Shown: one piece after another, positions 10,061 through 17,268 of the stretch
How the letters are laid out: each line of letters begins with the position of its first letter
Numbering within the stretch: position 1 is the stretch's first letter
Assembly (NCBI GenBank): GCA_003228125.1
Contig: QGNP01000010.1
Location: forward strand, 1-36,908
Length of the DNA stretch: 36,908 bases
Direction: 5' to 3'
From: Chloroflexota bacterium
GTDB lineage: Bacteria; Chloroflexota; Dehalococcoidia; UBA2979
The notes under the pieces: generated by a model
The model's input: the letters and a program-made list of their open reading frames with translations, nothing else
Told to the model about the DNA's origin: nothing
The model's database searches: none
Program-made: the position numbers and the translations under genes

Positions 10061-10090
10061 TTGACAATTATGAATTAACATAGGTACGAT
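10061..10090 (+). promoter_or_regulatory. Sigma70-like promoter for the four-cysteine protein gene
   Basis: A perfect -35 box TTGACA (10061-10066) and a -10 box TACGAT (10085-10090) are separated by 18 bases. The predicted start is near 10097, leaving a short leader with an AGAGGAA ribosome-binding site before the ATG at 10112. This is the best -35 match in the window. Confidence 0.6.
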
Positions 10091-10111
10091 TATTTTCTAG
10101 AGGAATTTACA

Positions 10112-10900
10112 ATGAATGTTTTGCGCCATGATAGCTATGAATTATTTTGGAATGAGGCCAATGGATGGAGTTATTCTGGAATTGGAAAAGAGTTATCAAT
10201 TAATAAATTAGAAAATATGAGAACTGCTCCATTTGAATTAGGAGGCATTATTTCATCAATTAGACACAACTATATAGGAGATAGTGTTATTGAAAAAGAA
10301 TCGTCAATTGATGAATTAATGAAGCGTGCTGTCACTACTCATAATTCTGATGATCCCCAAATAATTACAATGCGTGCGTTATTAGATCAGCGAATGCTAT
10401 GGTGGATGAATAAATATGGGTGCTTAAATACATATGATACAAAGCCTGAATATCGAACCATGACAGTGTTTATTTCTCAAGCTAAAAAATTTGAATGGAT
10501 ATTTGATTATATGACAGAAATTGGTCTGTATGCTGCAGCTTTGCCAGATGGATTATTGCGCATGCGTCCAACAGTAGATATTAATCCACAAACAAAAAGA
10601 TCTTATAGAAAAAATGAAGTGAATGCAGTGTCAAAAGAAGATTTTGCACAATATGTTCAGGAGATGATTATTGCAGGCATGACAAAATTTGTCCATGGAA
10701 CGATAGACGAACCAATACCTACGAATATGCAAGGTGCCCTGTGGTTAATTGCAGATCAAGAACTGCAAAATAAAACATCATTAATACGATGCGCAAATAT
10801 TTCAACTCCATGCATGAGTCTAATAGAATTAAAAAATGAACCTAATCCACAACGAGCATGTAGTTCAAATTGCCAAGCAATTATAAATCTATTGCAGTAA
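10112..10900 (+). CDS. Unknown protein with C-terminal four-cysteine motif (paralogue A)
   Basis: 262 residues; I do not recognise the family. Most of the protein aligns by eye with the product of 11859-12704: a common start (SYE-FW, GW), then PFELG--ISSIR, SIDELM, RMLWWMNKYGC, QAKKFEW, NMQGALWLIA and finally RCAN---PCMSL. The C-terminus has C-x6-C-x15-C-x3-C (Cys227, 234, 250, 254), a layout expected for a zinc-binding knuckle. The RC...C...CS..C pattern after a helix ending LQN loosely recalls CGNR-type zinc fingers, but spacing differs. No signal peptide or membrane segment is seen. It has its own promoter and stands at the edge of a paralogue-rich island. Confidence 0.75.
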   Translation: MNVLRHDSYELFWNEANGWSYSGIGKELSINKLENMRTAPFELGGIISSIRHNYIGDSVIEKESSIDELMKRAVTTHNSDDPQIITMRALLDQRMLWWMNKYGCLNTYDTKPEYRTMTVFISQAKKFEWIFDYMTEIGLYAAALPDGLLRMRPTVDINPQTKRSYRKNEVNAVSKEDFAQYVQEMIIAGMTKFVHGTIDEPIPTNMQGALWLIADQELQNKTSLIRCANISTPCMSLIELKNEPNPQRACSSNCQAIINLLQ

Positions 10901-11043
10901 TGTTGCATATTAGATAATGTTTTTTATAAACGCATCTGAATGGTTATGTTATTTTTGTAACTTTTAGTATTTAATTAATATCTGTAGTAGATAGTTTTTA
11001 AATAATATTTTTTTGTGTTAAAAAATGAGAGTAGGCTTTGTTT

Positions 11044-11319
11044 ATGGCAACAAAAATATTTAATAGCATATATTTTCGTAAGATTGTTTGCAATAGCTAC
11101 TTTTTTTTATATTTGGTTGGCGTGTTGTTATGTTTATTTTTAATGATTATCAGTAATCATCAATCTACTAATTGCATGGAAACAGAAATTAATGGCTATT
11201 GCGGTGATGTAGGTTTTGCTGCGGAAGCCAGCAGTAAATTACTTTTTATTATATCTAGTTGTTTTATAGGGATAAAAATTATCTTTGTAGATATGCTTAC
11301 CATAATACGAAAGAAATAA
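11044..11319 (+). CDS. Small membrane protein, unknown
   Basis: 91 residues from the ATG at 11044; an in-frame TTG lies two codons upstream but has no better ribosome-binding site. Two hydrophobic segments are visible, around residues 17-37 (FFLYLVGVLLCLFLMIIS) and 66-82 (LLFIISSCFIGIKIIFV), joined by a loop with two cysteines (NCMETEINGYCGDV) that could form a disulfide outside the membrane. The final codons fall inside a long inverted repeat. It lies between the two four-cysteine paralogues. No family is recognised, and the weak start signal keeps this tentative. Confidence 0.45.
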   Translation: MATKIFNSIYFRKIVCNSYFFLYLVGVLLCLFLMIISNHQSTNCMETEINGYCGDVGFAAEASSKLLFIISSCFIGIKIIFVDMLTIIRKK

Positions 11320-11346
11320 TTTCTTTTTTTGTATTATGGTAAGCAT
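11293..11346. repeat. 54-bp near-palindrome with 16-bp perfect arms
   Basis: Arms 11293-11308 (ATGCTTACCATAATAC) and 11331-11346 are perfect reverse complements. Within the 22-base interior, AAAGAAA and TTTCTTT can pair as well, so the whole element can fold into one long hairpin. The last codons and the TAA of the small membrane protein (11317-11319) lie inside it. No T-run follows on either strand, which argues against a plain terminator. Confidence 0.8.
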
Positions 11347-11553
11347 GTCTTTCATTATTAACGTCATATAAAACTTCTTGAATTGATATTCCGCAATATT
11401 ATTATGGTCTTGACTTGGGAAGACATGAAAAAAAATTCATATATGGATAAACAGAAATCTTAGAGTAGCTTTAATCTATTTTTACGTTCCATGGATCCCA
11501 AAAAATAATCATTCATCTAGCCTAAAGCCACAAAAAAGGGACTCTTGCAAATT

Positions 11554-11781
11554 ATGTATACTTATTATCAATTGTACCAGAGAAAAATTAGAGTCATGTT
11601 TAATCTCATTATTGACAACCCAGTTATTTATTATTTAACTGCTAGCGTTGTTGCTATAGTTATCGGCATAGTTTTAGGAAATATTTTACTAGTTACTTTA
11701 ATAGTCTTTTGTATTGCAATATTTTATGTAAGGCGTATCAGAAAACCAAAGGTATGCTCTCAATGCAATGAAGTGCATTAA
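11554..11781 (+). CDS. Small membrane protein with C-terminal CxxC, unknown
   Basis: About 75 residues if the ATG at 11554 is used. A TTG at 11545 and an ATG at 11596 are alternatives, and none has a well-spaced Shine-Dalgarno sequence (AAAGGG lies at 11535-11540). From IIDNPVIYYLTASVVAIVIG to LLVTLIVFCIAIFYV two hydrophobic segments form a hairpin, followed by a basic stretch (RRIRKPK) and the end VCSQCNEVH. The C-terminal CxxC with a nearby His is half of a typical zinc ribbon. It precedes the second four-cysteine paralogue by about 75 bases. Not recognised as a known family. Confidence 0.45.
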   Translation: MYTYYQLYQRKIRVMFNLIIDNPVIYYLTASVVAIVIGIVLGNILLVTLIVFCIAIFYVRRIRKPKVCSQCNEVH

Positions 11782-11793
11782 GGATTATAATTC

Positions 11794-11822
11794 TATGCAT
11801 AACTGCTAAATTATTATATGAT
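11794..11822 (+). promoter_or_regulatory. Copy 1 of a shared promoter-like block
   Basis: AAATTATTATATGATTG (11808-11824) contains TATGAT at 11817-11822 as a probable -10 box, 36 bases before the ATG at 11859. TATGCA at 11794-11799 is a weak -35 at 17 bases. The same core, with the same distance to the start codon within a few bases, precedes the genes at 13782 and 14584, although their products are unrelated to this one. Confidence 0.5.
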
Positions 11823-11858
11823 TGTCCCTAAATATAATTCTTTATGATGGAAAGTATA

Positions 11859-12704
11859 ATGACTATTTATAGGAATGAAAGCTATGAAATATTTTGGGAC
11901 AATGAGCTTGGTTGGGCATTTAAGGCTAAAGGAAAAAAATCAGAGATTGATTGGCAATCTTCAGTCATGGACTCATCTCCATTTGAGTTAGGCCATGTTA
12001 TTTCTTCTATTCGATATAAATACCTTCCAAATGAAGTGCCAAACAATGAAGATATTTGGCAAGTAAAAGATGCATCTCAAACTATATATTCTCTTTCTGA
12101 AGCATTAGCAGGGATTCATTTGCAAAATAAATCTATTGATGAACTTATGATTGAGGCAGCAACTTTAAAAGAAGCAAATGATCCCATAATTCTAGCATTG
12201 CAAAAATTATTAACAACACGTTTACTATGGTGGATGAATAAATTTGGCTGCATTGCTACTAAGAGTGAGTACATGACCATGTCTAATATTATTACACAAG
12301 CGAAGTTATTTGAATGGGTCTTTGAATTTCAGATAGCAATACAAACAGAGAGAGATCAGGTCCACATCCGAGGTGGAGCTCCAGTCAAAATAGATTCAAA
12401 TTTTCGTCAGCCCGATGGATCTGGAACAACTTCTTTAGAAGAATTTTCTAGATGGATTAATGACAACATTAATAATGGTAAAATTAAATTTGTGAGGAAT
12501 ATATCTGGCAATAATGAGCCATTAAATATGCAGGGTGCTTTATGGTTAATTGCTGAAAAACAATTACAAAATGGAAAAATTTTTAGACGATGTGGAAATT
12601 CATGGATACCATGCATGAGCTTAGTAGAGATAAAAGATATTGGATTAGAATCAGAATATATTTGTAGTGAGCGATGTAGTAGTTGGAGTACTTATTATGC
12701 CTAA
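11859..12704 (+). CDS. Unknown protein with C-terminal four-cysteine motif (paralogue B)
   Basis: 281 residues from the ATG at 11859. Earlier in-frame ATGs at 11844 and 11847 exist, but GGAAAG at 11849-11854 is a good ribosome-binding site for 11859, and the paralogue at 10112 aligns from exactly this Met. Compared with paralogue A it has an extra block of about 27 residues (around 57-85, including DASQTIYSLSEALAGIHLQN) and a different segment near 160-185. The shared core keeps PFELG--ISSIR, LLWWMNKFGC, QAK-FEW and NMQGALWLIA. The C-terminal cysteines are Cys245, 252, 269 and 273 (C-x6-C-x16-C-x3-C). Divergence is high for a tandem pair, so the duplication is old or the copies diverged under selection. 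Function unknown. Confidence 0.75.
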   Translation: MTIYRNESYEIFWDNELGWAFKAKGKKSEIDWQSSVMDSSPFELGHVISSIRYKYLPNEVPNNEDIWQVKDASQTIYSLSEALAGIHLQNKSIDELMIEAATLKEANDPIILALQKLLTTRLLWWMNKFGCIATKSEYMTMSNIITQAKLFEWVFEFQIAIQTERDQVHIRGGAPVKIDSNFRQPDGSGTTSLEEFSRWINDNINNGKIKFVRNISGNNEPLNMQGALWLIAEKQLQNGKIFRRCGNSWIPCMSLVEIKDIGLESEYICSERCSSWSTYYA

Positions 12705-13028
12705 CATGAAAGGCAATTACAAATTATATATAGATATAAAAAATATTATTAATTTTTCAGGAAGATAGACTATTCGTATTTGAGCCGAGCACTCGGCAAA
12801 GGCTCGACTCGAAACTATTGTACATATATATACAGGTAAACGATATCAGTAATGCATTTATTGCATTCTTAAAATAATTAGAAATCTTACGATAGCTAGG
12901 ATTACTTATTTGGATAACAATTTTCTATTTAATTATTGCCTTAATTTTATATATATTGTTTAATTTAACAATAATGGCAAATTTAAATTTAATTAATAAT
13001 TAATTTTATTAATGTTAGGAGATAAAAT
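12705..13028 (+). other. 324-base intergenic region with a GC-rich imperfect hairpin
   Basis: No convincing ORF or tRNA is present. The notable element is at 12782-12810: GAGCCGAGC and GCTCGACTC pair with a single A-C mismatch around an 11-base loop, and a smaller hairpin (GCCGAG/CTCGGC) is an alternative fold within it. This patch is far richer in G and C than its surroundings. A small AATGCA/TGCATT hairpin follows near 12851. The last 110 bases are very AT-rich and must hold the promoter of the membrane-protein gene at 13029, but no clear -35/-10 pair stands out. Confidence 0.4.
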
Positions 13029-13676
13029 ATGACATCAATGGATATCAAAAAAATGGGCGGTTACTGTATGATGATTGGCCCAGTAATAGCAGTGGCCTGC
13101 TATTTTATTCAACCTGGAGGAGTACTTGGAATTGGTGGCACTGTCGACGGATATGATGCGGCAGGTGTTGTAAGTATACTAGTTGCAAATTCAGTATTAG
13201 GAATTATTACATCCTTACTAATTCCAGTGGGATTATTGCTTACATTAGCTGGCATTATCATTTGGGTACAAGGTTGGAATGGCAGTAATGGATATGGACT
13301 AGGAATGATATCTATCCCTATGGCAACTACAGCAATAGTTGGATGGAGTATTGGCAGTGCATTAAGTATTGTAATCGCTGCTGGCATTGCTTCGAGTACT
13401 GCATTAGTCGAAGCATTTTTTGGAATCAATATTATTAGTACATTTATATTTGGAGCTGGATCAACCTTGCTTGCAATAGGTGCAGCTTCAAGAAGTGAAG
13501 TTAACAGTAATTTTGCTAATGTCGCAATAGTAGCCGGTGCAATTGTAGGTATTTCTTCAGCAATAGCTCCTTTTGCAACAAGCGCAGGAACAGCAATCCA
13601 AATGATTTCTGGACTATGCTTCTTTATTTATACACTCTGGTTTATTGTTCTTGGAAGAGCAATAACTTCAAAATAA
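13029..13676 (+). CDS. Multi-pass membrane protein, unknown (distant relative of the two that follow)
   Basis: 215 residues with about six hydrophobic segments rich in Gly, Ala, Ile and Ser. GGAG seven bases before the ATG supports the start. The N-terminus has a helix running into Pro-Gly (GPVIAVACYFIQPGG), the same layout as APIATIAMWFLTPVG and SPLSLLCWFLTPGS in the next two proteins, suggesting a three-member local family. Loops are short and carry few charges, with no transporter, channel or enzyme motif recognised. There is no lipobox and no large soluble domain. Confidence 0.7.
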   Translation: MTSMDIKKMGGYCMMIGPVIAVACYFIQPGGVLGIGGTVDGYDAAGVVSILVANSVLGIITSLLIPVGLLLTLAGIIIWVQGWNGSNGYGLGMISIPMATTAIVGWSIGSALSIVIAAGIASSTALVEAFFGINIISTFIFGAGSTLLAIGAASRSEVNSNFANVAIVAGAIVGISSAIAPFATSAGTAIQMISGLCFFIYTLWFIVLGRAITSK

Positions 13677-13719
13677 ATAAATATATAATTTTTTTTATTC
13701 AATTTATTGTATGAATTAT

Positions 13720-13748
13720 TAGTCTATTTCATTAAATTATTATATGAT
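13720..13748 (+). promoter_or_regulatory. Copy 2 of a shared promoter-like block
   Basis: AAATTATTATATGATTG recurs at 13734-13750, with TATGAT at 13743-13748 as probable -10 and only a poor -35 (TAGTCT, 13720-13725). The match to copy 1 at 11808 is exact over 17 bases. Downstream it continues as AAATTCTTAATGGAGG, shared with copy 3. The start codon is 33 bases after the -10 box. Confidence 0.5.
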
Positions 13749-13781
13749 TGTTGACAAATAAAATTCTTAATGGAGGTTTTA

Positions 13782-14390
13782 ATGAATACTAAGATAACAG
13801 GATGGGTTCTGACAGTTGCGCCCATTGCTACTATAGCTATGTGGTTTTTGACACCAGTAGGTTCAGAAACAGATAGAGTGGCAAATTTAATGGCAGCAGC
13901 TGCTGATCCAGATGGAATGAAGATATTTGGTTTACTATCTTTGGTCTTTTCAATAGCTTATGTTTCTGCATTCTTGCATTGGGCAAACGATCTCAAGGCA
14001 GGCGCTTTAGGTGTTTTAGCCGTTGTAGGTTCTTTGCATCTTGTAGTAGGTCTTTCGGGTGCTTTAGCAGAAATTGCACTAATGGGTGCCGGTGCTAAGG
14101 CTGCTTCTGCAGGAGCAGCTGGTATGGCGACTGGTATGACTTATTGGGCAGGTGGAATTGCATTTGGCTCAGCAGGCATAGGTCTGATGATGCTTGGTGT
14201 TGCAGTTATTGGTGTGGCCGCTTATTTACAAAAAGCTACTAATCCAATCGTTGCTATTGCACTTACTGTATCCGGCCTCTTAGGTGTATACGGTGCTGCT
14301 TTTGCATATGAGGAAATGTTTATGAGTATTGCTTATATGGCCGTTACTCTTGGGCATGTTGCCCTTGGTGTTACTTTACTTCGAAAGTAG
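13782..14390 (+). CDS. Multi-pass membrane protein, unknown (tandem paralogue 1)
   Basis: 202 residues from the ATG at 13782. An in-frame ATG at 13770 is rejected because its bases run into GGAGG (13772-13776), which is the Shine-Dalgarno sequence five bases before 13782. About six hydrophobic segments are visible. The first loop carries the conserved DPDGMKI motif near residue 45, and a glycine-rich stretch IAFGSAGIGLMMLGVAVIG lies in the second half; both recur in the product of 14584. Very rich in Ala and Gly. No enzymatic motif is seen. Probably an integral inner-membrane protein of unknown role. Confidence 0.75.
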   Translation: MNTKITGWVLTVAPIATIAMWFLTPVGSETDRVANLMAAAADPDGMKIFGLLSLVFSIAYVSAFLHWANDLKAGALGVLAVVGSLHLVVGLSGALAEIALMGAGAKAASAGAAGMATGMTYWAGGIAFGSAGIGLMMLGVAVIGVAAYLQKATNPIVAIALTVSGLLGVYGAAFAYEEMFMSIAYMAVTLGHVALGVTLLRK

Positions 14391-14404
14391 TAAAAACTTT
14401 TAAT

Positions 14405-14448
14405 TATTTAATGGTTGTAATATATATAAATCTTGCAACCATTAAATA
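14405..14448 (+). terminator. Hairpin after tandem paralogue 1
   Basis: Perfect 13-bp arms at 14405-14417 (TATTTAATGGTTG) and 14436-14448 enclose an 18-base loop, starting 15 bases after the stop codon. The following T-rich sequence TATATTTTAATTT is a weak U-tract, so this is a probable rather than certain terminator. Confidence 0.5.
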
Positions 14449-14520
14449 TATTTTAATTTATTCAATTTAAATTTTATCCGTAGTCTAATTTCTCTCTCTT
14501 CTCTTCAATTAGCACATTTA

Positions 14521-14549
14521 TATACAAATTCATCAAATTATTATATAAT
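14521..14549 (+). promoter_or_regulatory. Copy 3 of a shared promoter-like block
   Basis: CAAATTATTATATAATT at 14534-14550 differs from the other copies by a change that makes the -10 a perfect TATAAT (14544-14549). TATACA at 14521-14526 is a plausible -35 with 17-base spacing. The start codon is 34 bases beyond the -10. The adjoining TAAAATTCTTAATGGAGG is shared with copy 2, so this part of the tandem duplication includes regulatory DNA. Confidence 0.6.
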
Positions 14550-14583
14550 TAACTCCTATGTAAAATTCTTAATGGAGGTTTTT

Positions 14584-15201
14584 ATGACAAATAGAAAAAT
14601 AATAGGGTTAATTCTTTTAATTGCGTCTCCTTTGTCCTTGCTTTGCTGGTTCTTGACTCCGGGGTCTAGCGCGGACCAGGCAGACATAATGGCAATGATT
14701 ATGGCTGCTGGGCAAGATCCAGATGGCATGAAGATATGGGGCTTGCTTGCGATGGTATGCACCATTTTTTATGTCACAGCATTTACAAGATGGGCAAAAC
14801 ATTTAGAATCAGAATCTCTAGGTGCTTTAGCTTCAGTTGGTCGTTTACATATGAAAGTTGGTCTTGCAGTTGCAATCGGTCAAGTTGTATTTATGGGCGT
14901 GTCGGCGAAAGCTGCTTCAGAGGGTGCAACTCAAATGGCATCTGCTGCAGAATACTGGGGAGCATCAATTGGCTTTGGTTCAGCAGGATTAGGAATTATG
15001 TTTCTGGGTACCGCTGTTATCAGTATCGTTGCTCTCTTACAAAAAGTAGGTAATCCAATTATCCTAGGTGGCTTAGCAGTTGTTTCCTTGGTTGGAGTTT
15101 ATGGTTGTGCGTTTGATTACTCAGGCGATATAATGATGGTCCCATATATGGGTAGTGTTCTTTTCTTCATGGCTTTGGGCGCTACATTATTGCGAGATTA
15201 G
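14584..15201 (+). CDS. Multi-pass membrane protein, unknown (tandem paralogue 2)
   Basis: 205 residues from the ATG at 14584, with GGAGG at 14574-14578; the upstream ATG at 14572 overlaps that Shine-Dalgarno sequence. It aligns along its whole length with the 13782 product: WFLTPGS, then QDPDGMKIWGLL, SLGALASVGRLHM, AKAASEGATQMA, GFGSAGLGIMFLGTAVI and a final GATLLRD (GVTLLRK in the first copy). About six membrane segments. Tandem duplication with a retained promoter suggests dosage or specialised variants of one membrane component. No known family is recognised. Confidence 0.75.
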   Translation: MTNRKIIGLILLIASPLSLLCWFLTPGSSADQADIMAMIMAAGQDPDGMKIWGLLAMVCTIFYVTAFTRWAKHLESESLGALASVGRLHMKVGLAVAIGQVVFMGVSAKAASEGATQMASAAEYWGASIGFGSAGLGIMFLGTAVISIVALLQKVGNPIILGGLAVVSLVGVYGCAFDYSGDIMMVPYMGSVLFFMALGATLLRD

Positions 15202-15221
15202 TGCTACTATTTAGATGATTT

Positions 15222-15259
15222 AATGACTGCATGGAATGAAAATTCATGCAGTCATTTTT
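15222..15259 (+). terminator. Intrinsic terminator after tandem paralogue 2
   Basis: Perfect 12-bp arms AATGACTGCATG (15222-15233) and its complement (15245-15256) are followed by T residues through 15259. It lies 20 bases after the stop codon and closes the membrane-protein island before the tRNA-Gly unit. Confidence 0.75.
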
Positions 15260-15275
15260 ATGTCTTCTGATTGCC

Positions 15276-15318: not shown

Positions 15319-15393
15319 GCGGGAGTAGCTCAGTGGTAGAGCATCTGTTTTCCAAACAGATGGCCGTGGGTTCGATCCCCATCTCCCGCTCCA
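15319..15393 (+). tRNA. tRNA-Gly (anticodon TCC)
   Basis: The acceptor arms GCGGGAG (15319-15325) and CTCCCGC (15383-15389) pair fully, followed by discriminator T and an encoded CCA (15391-15393). The anticodon stem TCTGT/ACAGA encloses the loop TTTCCAA, giving anticodon TCC at 15351-15353. The T arm contains GGTTCGATCCC. A short protein gene starts 27 bases after the CCA with no terminator between, so the transcript may be tRNA plus mRNA. Confidence 0.95.
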
Positions 15394-15419: not shown

Positions 15420-15707
15420 ATGTACGGTAGTATTTTTTCAATGAAAGTTAAAAATGGACATGAAGAGCAACTGTTATCTCTTTTCAATTCTTATAACGAA
15501 TCAAGGCCTGATGGGGCTGTTGCGTGGTTTGTATTAAATGCAGATGAAAAAGATGAATGGATTGGTGTTTCAGTATTCACAAGCAAAGAAGCATATGTTG
15601 CTAATGCAAATCTACCAGAGCAGCATGATAATTTTGTACAAATGATGGAACATCTTGAATCTGAGCCCCAGTGGACTGATGGTGAATACGTTATTAGCGA
15701 AACCTAA
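15420..15707 (+). CDS. Small dimeric alpha-beta barrel protein (antibiotic biosynthesis monooxygenase-like)
   Basis: 95 residues, ATG preceded by GAGGAG. The pattern MYGSIFSMKVKNGHEEQLLSL, then AVAWFVLNADEKDEWIGVSVFTSKEAY, then QMMEHLESEPQWTDGEY, is the ferredoxin-like fold of ABM and related dimeric barrels: a strand, a helix starting after an NGHEE turn, two strands, a helix and a final strand. Members include small cofactor-less monooxygenases, haem-degrading proteins and proteins of no known activity. No active-site assignment is possible. It follows tRNA-Gly by 27 bases and its 3' end overlaps the lipoprotein gene. Confidence 0.7.
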   Translation: MYGSIFSMKVKNGHEEQLLSLFNSYNESRPDGAVAWFVLNADEKDEWIGVSVFTSKEAYVANANLPEQHDNFVQMMEHLESEPQWTDGEYVISET

Positions 15708-17268
15708 TAACATTAAAAAAAATATTTTCATAACACTTGCTGTTGTAAGTATTATGTTTGGATGTTCATCGGATGATTCTAGTATCTCAGATACTGATGC
15801 AATGAAAACATCTAAGGAGGATGGAGCAGTATACATTCCAAAGCAAAAGTCTATTGAATCAACTATTGAATCACAAAACACAAAAACAACTGTTCAAACA
15901 AAAAAATCTGTAGAACAACCAATAGCGAAGCCAGCACCAGTAAAAAATAATACTACTGTACCTAGGCAAAGCAATGCTGATTCAGTGCCAGTTGTCCAGA
16001 CTACAACTCCTGTAACATCACTTAATAATTCAACGACTTTTGCTTGCAACAGAGAGAGCATAGACGACTCATCTATAGATTTTGCAGTACTTGTTGATAA
16101 TAAAATTGCTATTACACTTGGTACTAGTGCTCGATCTAATGGTTTTCAAGATTTAGCGGTTAATTTTTTACCAAGATCTAATCCACAGATATCAGGCACA
16201 CCTACTAAATATGCTGCATTTAATGAGACAAAAGGCTTTGCGTTGCACGAGTATGCATCTGAAAGCTTGTCTTTAGATAGCACGTTTCATGAAATTGATA
16301 TTCCAGTTGGAAAAACTCCGTTTCAAATGGGATATAAAATTGAACTAATTGCCACTCAAAATACTGGTAATAGTTGTAGCGCAATTATTTTTTCATATTA
16401 TGATCGTCCTGCAGTAATGTTTCCTGTTAGTAATATCGTTGTCCCAGCAAGCATGCAACCAAACTTAAATACTTGGAATAAGTATTCTAACAATATGCCA
16501 ATTTCATCTGCAGAAGCAGTTATTTTAGCAACGCATAGCGGAAGATGGAATAATAATGTTTGGGAAAAAAATGAAGACGGGGTTGAAAAGAAACTATTAA
16601 ATGAAGTCCCTATGCAAGTTGCTTTATATGGCGATGTGTCATTAGAAGATTATGAAACTATACGAGATATCATGGAAGTATATAAAATTATAGCTCCAAC
16701 TAGAGAAATATCTTTTGCGACAGATTTTGACCAAGTATCAGTACCAATTCATCTTGTTGATTGTGGTATTTTGATCAATTCTGAGAAGGAGCATTGTTTT
16801 GTTGATAGACCCTCTGGAGCTATGTCGAGACCAAGTTTTTTCGTTGCGCAAGCAAATGATGGTTCAACTTTTCATCAAAAATTAATTGGAAATTATTATG
16901 GCTATATTAATTTATCTAATCAACGAATCAATCGACATACACTTGGCCATGAGTTCATGCATATAATGGGAGCTAACCATACAAATTGTGAAAATAATTC
17001 GATGGGGCCTGGTTGGGCGCAATCACCTTATCTCGGCCCTCATGATTTAATGACTATTGCAGCAATTCACCATCCTGCTGTAGAGAATGGTGATGGCCCT
17101 GAAGAAATGAGGGAAGCACTTGGTATTCCTAATGATTCTAAGTGGAAATCGCTGTTAAATAATCCTAGTTTAGCTTGCGAAACGCCTGATAATTATTGGG
17201 TTAATTTTTCAGATGATTTAATGCAGCAATGGCTTCCGACGCATGAACTTGCTGAAAGCAAGCTTTAG
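15679..17268 (+). CDS. Lipoprotein with metzincin-type HExxHxxGxxH zinc-protease motif
   Basis: 529 residues from the ATG at 15679; a TTG at 15655 and the GTG at 15682 are alternatives because no strong ribosome-binding site marks the start. The gene overlaps the 3' end of the ABM-like gene by 29 bases in another frame. A signal peptide (basic IKKN, then IFITLAVVSIMFGC) ends at Cys29, a lipobox-like site, so the mature protein is probably membrane-anchored outside the cytoplasm. Residues 30-120 form a Ser/Thr/Lys/Pro-rich linker. HEFMHIMGANH starts at His424 and fits the metzincin zinc site HExxHxxGxxH; NNSMGPG shortly after could supply the Met-turn. Several cysteines may form disulfides. 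No closer family is recognised. A secreted or surface peptidase is the likely role. Confidence 0.75.
   Translation: MVNTLLAKPNNIKKNIFITLAVVSIMFGCSSDDSSISDTDAMKTSKEDGAVYIPKQKSIESTIESQNTKTTVQTKKSVEQPIAKPAPVKNNTTVPRQSNADSVPVVQTTTPVTSLNNSTTFACNRESIDDSSIDFAVLVDNKIAITLGTSARSNGFQDLAVNFLPRSNPQISGTPTKYAAFNETKGFALHEYASESLSLDSTFHEIDIPVGKTPFQMGYKIELIATQNTGNSCSAIIFSYYDRPAVMFPVSNIVVPASMQPNLNTWNKYSNNMPISSAEAVILATHSGRWNNNVWEKNEDGVEKKLLNEVPMQVALYGDVSLEDYETIRDIMEVYKIIAPTREISFATDFDQVSVPIHLVDCGILINSEKEHCFVDRPSGAMSRPSFFVAQANDGSTFHQKLIGNYYGYINLSNQRINRHTLGHEFMHIMGANHTNCENNSMGPGWAQSPYLGPHDLMTIAAIHHPAVENGDGPEEMREALGIPNDSKWKSLLNNPSLACETPDNYWVNFSDDLMQQWLPTHELAESKL

Follow-up and report, generated by a model that had tools for sequence, protein, structure and literature searches.

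Among structurally described proteins, the closest counterparts of the soluble proteins considered here belong to the ABATE-CGNR family (PF07336/PF11706; PMC2954205), whose members combine an N-terminal domain with a treble-clef zinc finger at the C-terminus; two of the finger's cysteines lie in the knuckle, and the other two where the last helix begins. The finger of one member, Jann_2411, is a treble clef that, according to its authors, likely binds DNA (PMC2954205). Two groups of Chloroflexota proteins also invite comparison: an unnamed family (L047, L048, L049, L052 and L064-L066) showing, in order, a YG motif with W-rich helices, an LxxALW helix and a four-cysteine end; and a membrane family (L109, L112 and L115) sharing the N-terminal motif 'GLSLIFGP..A..FFL.PGG', for which—as for the membrane proteins M1 and M2 described below—we found no curated family or function.

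Here, we describe a stretch of 36,908 nucleotides (the window), which is contig 10 of a 1.1-Mb Dehalococcoidia metagenome-assembled genome that is 84% complete. Its CaiB-type CoA transferase, luciferase-like and MFS genes recall SAR202-type Chloroflexota, a likeness by which the lineage may also be called 'marine-type'. An initial annotation had singled out seven genes in the window as an accessory island and a working unit, perhaps in membrane sensing or stress response. Comparison with a sister species (one genome available, 88% complete) and with more distant Chloroflexota suggests that there is probably no dedicated functional island here and that the genes come from two independent families adjoining each other at a variable site.

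Results

In the ORF list of the window, the seven open reading frames span 10112-15201 and all lie on the + strand (Table 1), so that the initial description of seven one-strand genes from two duplicated families was right, as was its remark that none belongs to a known family: the island proteins gave no significant match in Pfam, NCBIfam, PHROGs or PADLOC scans. For several of the seven genes the ORF start had been called too early. The small CxxC gene, called at 11545-11781, was given a new start (its orthologue in the sister species, L015:11448-11633, is of equal length and 56% identical), and for P2 the likelier start is 11859, which brings it into register with P1. In M1 and M2 the second ATG (13782 and 14584) is the probable start codon, since GGAGG, the likely ribosome-binding site, falls within the called ORF.

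Table 1. Features of the seven-gene stretch and of its right-hand border, in window coordinates.
Feature	Position	Strand	Remarks
P1, four-cysteine (treble-clef-like) protein, 262 aa	10112..10900	+	
Small predicted membrane protein, 93 aa	11038..11319	+	ATG at 11044 likelier start
Small membrane protein, C-terminal CxxC, 61 aa	11596..11781	+	Kept in place in sister species
Leader/promoter element, copy 1 of 3, before P2	11808..11858	+	AAATTATTATATGATTGT
P2, four-cysteine protein, 286 aa as called	11844..12704	+	
Multi-pass membrane protein 13029, 215 aa	13029..13676	+	
Leader/promoter element, copy 2 of 3, before M1	13734..13781	+	
M1, multi-pass membrane protein, 206 aa as called	13770..14390	+	
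Leader/promoter element, copy 3 of 3, before M2	14535..14583	+	
M2, paralogue of M1	14572..15201	+	
Terminator-like hairpin 3' of M2	15222..15256	+	
tRNA-Gly(TCC)	15319..15393	+	In place in sister species too
ABM-domain protein gene	15420..15707	+	In place in sister species too

A long AT-rich terminator-like hairpin of 20 pairs follows the 93-aa ORF (11296-11343), and Rfam matches at 11286-11354 were dismissed as chance hits to this hairpin, leaving the tRNA as the only real match in the Rfam scan. A candidate structured RNA in the spacer between P2 and 13029 (12740-12860) was likewise rejected, as its fold was no better than those of shuffled sequences (z -0.36); no convincing second copy of this spacer was found.

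P1 and P2 are 40% identical. They had been described as four-cysteine paralogues, which holds for their kinship and for a C-terminal motif C-x6-C-x15/16-C-x3-C, although each protein has five cysteines, the fifth of which (in NKYGC/NKFGC) is not conserved. Their C-terminal sequences are CSSNCQAIINLLQ (P1) and CSERCSSWSTYYA (P2). An AlphaFold2 model of P1 (pLDDT 83, pTM 0.82) places a strand-strand-helix end around the cysteines, as would be expected of a treble clef. Searched against the PDB with Foldseek, the model found no full-length or meaningful match (best E 0.26), and 3h0n, the structure of Jann_2411, was not among the 50 matches listed, so the search returned no ABATE fold for the N-terminal domain.

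Searches of both genomes recovered seven members of the four-cysteine family in the window genome, spread over three contigs, and five in the sister species, all at scattered positions; a single-protein search with P2 across 60 relatives found no member in other genera. On contig 5 of the window genome, three members lie around typA, two of them directly adjoining it, and in the sister genome the orthologue of P1 (L016:7772-8608) adjoins typA. Four-cysteine genes thus flank typA (BipA) in both species (L019:10877-12685 and L016:8685-10517); they are different paralogues, which reads as a rearrangement that moved typA with, or past, four-cysteine genes.

P1 is 61% identical to this orthologue, with a dN/dS of 0.19 at a dS of 1.6, which is near saturation; no orthologue of P2 was found in the sister genome. 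Across orthologue pairs dN/dS is low (0.15-0.33), with dS near saturation for the four-cysteine genes. In a tree, P1 groups with its sister orthologue and P2 falls outside (support 82/78). Given this moderately supported topology, and 40% identity between P1 and P2 against 61% between orthologues, the split between P1 and P2 appears older than the split between the species. One further pair of orthologues, 59% identical (C5_201, L019:14436-15041; sister C28_246, L018:12042-12782), stops immediately ahead of the finger in each of the two species; because both end at the same place, the finger-less form is maintained and is not a fresh pseudogene.

A second subfamily (L038:2533-3375, L039:6404-7267 and L040:7102-7905), which we term bridging, has the classical spacing C-x4/5-C...C-x3-C, and its profile aligns with that of the main subfamily at an hhalign probability of 96.4%. 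When 393 genomes of the class were searched, the two-subfamily profile retrieved proteins ending in 'LLGAMWLQLA...C..C...CSxxCR', and L052 as a query recovered further proteins of this wider family, which is the unnamed family introduced above. The YG motif, the LxxALW helix and the four cysteines are common to P1/P2 and this family; the match runs over the full length of the bridging subfamily and is mostly C-terminal in the wider family, where significant matches cover model positions 189-275 only. Members of the wider family differ in their knuckles (C-x2-C to C-x5-C) and strongly basic tails, with a net finger charge of +9 to +14, whereas P1 and P2 are divergent and near-neutral at this end (+1 and -1, respectively). 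One wider-family protein (L047:1228-1872) has a C-terminal helix-turn-helix motif after its finger, as a Pfam hit that falls narrowly short of the cut-off. Such basic fingers, together with this one helix-turn-helix member, suggest that the wider family probably comprises nucleic-acid-binding regulators.

The best PDB match of the joint profile was 3h0n (E 0.016), confined to the finger and aligning C-x4-C...C-x3-C; this spacing is present in the bridging copies of L039 and L040, whereas P1 and P2 have C-x6-C, and the profile of the genus subfamily alone did not reach 3h0n. The zinc motif of the wider family may therefore be said to bear a weak sequence resemblance to the treble-clef finger of 3h0n. 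P1 and P2 would share with ABATE-CGNR proteins the order of domains and, by prediction, the placing of the four cysteines, but lack the basic tail; neither has a motif of the CGNR type or the conserved basic residues of the last helix. Neither protein matched PF07336 or PF11706 in Pfam at E<=1; PF11706 had no match in the window genome at E<=10, and the zf-CGNR model gave nothing over its cut-off in related genomes either.

The initial annotation had also grouped three membrane proteins as related. M1 and M2 are clearly paralogous (51% identical), and for them the claim stands as made; 13029 has no BLASTP similarity to either and is their kin at the level of profiles only, where its relatives and the M1/M2 group aligned at an hhalign probability of 95.9% over 201 columns, against 0.2% for an unrelated TauE-type membrane profile with each of them. 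One profile recovers M1, M2 and 13029 over their whole length and finds members, several of them multi-copy, in 38 of 400 Chloroflexota genomes; since the window proteins went into building it, independent support for relatedness comes from the hhalign comparison with its TauE-type controls. By profile evidence, M1, M2 and 13029 fall, as distant relatives, into a single superfamily of small multi-pass membrane proteins in Chloroflexota, which tend to occur in tandem. The L109/L112/L115 proteins are of similar length, and one profile recovers all of them with the three window proteins; M1 and M2 differ in being divergent, with a DPDGMKI loop of their own. An AlphaFold2 model of M1 (pLDDT 90.6) has seven helices and no meaningful match in the PDB (Foldseek).

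A homologue of 13029 (41-42% identical) is found in G048, a genome from a different family of the class, after another membrane gene and before a gene for a NicO-type transporter, a relative of which (53%) also lies downstream of the island in the window. Tandem membrane neighbours in other genera showed weak to moderate similarity to the superfamily (hhalign 4.7% and 35%).

At the syntenic site of the sister species (L015), the carbonic anhydrase gene of the left flank is kept, as are, to the right, the small CxxC gene, M1 (95% identical), M2 (83%), tRNA-Gly, the ABM gene, yaaA and the NicO transporter gene; P1, P2 and 13029 are absent. The term accessory island is hence apt, relative to this one sister, for P1, P2 and 13029, but not for M1, M2, the small CxxC gene, tRNA-Gly and the ABM gene, which form a conserved core.

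HExxH-type motifs recur in the genus in several unrelated-looking secreted or lipoprotein genes (window 15655-17268; L038:1215-2468; L019:16908-19331; L015:6569-8449; L040:10448-11650), one of which has Peptidase_M9/M61 matches; the L038 gene directly adjoins a four-cysteine gene. After the ABM gene of the sister, L015:13691-13831 is a C-terminal remnant of the window's HExxH lipoprotein gene (19/32 residues identical), and so marks a second local gene loss at this site.

A leader element precedes P2, M1 and M2. The window genome has three exact copies of its 16-base core AAATTATTATATRATT, one before each of these genes and none elsewhere, and the sister genome has two, before M1 and M2. Between P2 and M1 the likeness runs through the ribosome-binding site. 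The other four-cysteine genes of both genomes have no such leader, and the region upstream of P1 differs, being sigma70-like. Expression of M1 and of M2 would start from a separate copy of the leader in each case. On the left of the core at sister M1, a flank of 110 bases is 73% identical to the P2 side of the window (z 11.7), compared with z 2.1 for the M1 side; on the right, a flank of 60 bases is 92% identical to the M1 side (z 16.1), compared with 59% (z 4.7) for the P2 side. The sister junction thus lies inside the leader, an arrangement expected where the stretch between two direct repeats has collapsed or has been inserted.

Discussion

Taken together, these comparisons make it reasonably likely that the locus is a meeting place of two independent families. 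P1 and P2 are, judging from profiles and motifs, a genus-level paralogue family derived from the wider unnamed Chloroflexota family, with a helical N-terminal domain and a putative C-terminal treble-clef-like zinc finger; a superfamily of small multi-pass membrane proteins supplies M1, M2 and 13029 alongside; and recombination between repeats of the leader that P2 has in common with M1 and M2 would have deleted P2 and 13029 in the sister species. If the ancestral finger bound nucleic acid, those of P1 and P2 have probably lost that activity and kept the metal site, presumably for zinc; as the basic tail is missing, the finger would here most likely help the protein to fold or to contact other proteins, and a partner or ligand would be bound by the N-terminal domain.

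Junction geometry fits both directions of change, and P2 with 13029 could instead have been inserted in the window lineage, the leader being duplicated as a by-product. We regard such an insertion, which is compatible with the rest of the preferred explanation, as rather unlikely: the divergence of P1 and P2 appears to predate that of the species, and the homologue of 13029 in G048, which also lies near a NicO transporter gene, suggests an old position. With an older P1/P2 split and an old neighbour of 13029, a loss in the sister species is the more economical reading, and recombination between the leader repeats most likely removed P2 and 13029 from that genome. The common leader can, against this account, also be read as deliberate co-regulation, and it may co-regulate P2 with the membrane pair. 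P2, M1 and M2, perhaps with 13029, would then form a small regulon in which one transcription or sigma factor reads the leader and P2 acts as soluble partner or regulator, the sister having lost P2 and kept the membrane half. A core unique in the genome to the three genes, the likeness of P2 and M1 through the ribosome-binding site and the single strand of all genes speak for this regulon; yet leader likeness may merely trace tandem duplication and the recombination event, the sister keeps M1 and M2 without P2, and neither the other four-cysteine genes nor P1, with its sigma70-like upstream region, have the element, so that we think it unlikely.

More specific still, and distinctly improbable in our judgement, is a co-expressed unit in which P2, a zinc-finger protein without DNA binding, is the soluble partner of the tandem membrane pair, as one case of genus-wide adaptor-like zinc-finger paralogues that include conserved finger-less partners. 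Many copies in a small genome, their differing positions in the two species and the turnover of gene content around them might point to a mobile or defence element that expands in the genus, with the four-cysteine genes as its cargo or parts, but this is very improbable given the lack of matches in PADLOC and in phage, plasmid and viral collections, the low dN/dS of orthologue pairs, and the ORFs read at these loci, among which no transposase or integrase was recognised by eye.

The preferred account of two families meeting at a variable spot leaves little of the proposed working unit: the sister's four-cysteine genes lie elsewhere, with the P1 orthologue by typA, and its membrane pair is in place without a four-cysteine neighbour. 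What remains is a weak link between P2 and the membrane genes, in the form of a leader common to P2, M1 and M2 and found nowhere else in the genome. Judged by the refutation test set out in the initial annotation, the working unit mostly fails, the two families being scattered independently. The profile and structure searches yielded a wider family and the weak link to the 3h0n finger, but no PDB structure match for P1 or M1. Nothing that we found points to membrane sensing, and a stress response would be no more than an analogy to the ABATE-CGNR family.

Conclusions

The locus is a warning that adjacency in one genome should not be taken for a functional unit, and it illustrates how short leader repeats allow neighbouring genes to be gained or lost in small genomes. 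The bridging copies offer the first link between an orphan four-cysteine family and a structurally known domain, and that a 1.1-Mb genome keeps at least seven diverged versions of this uncharacterised, zinc-finger-like protein suggests investment in something specific.
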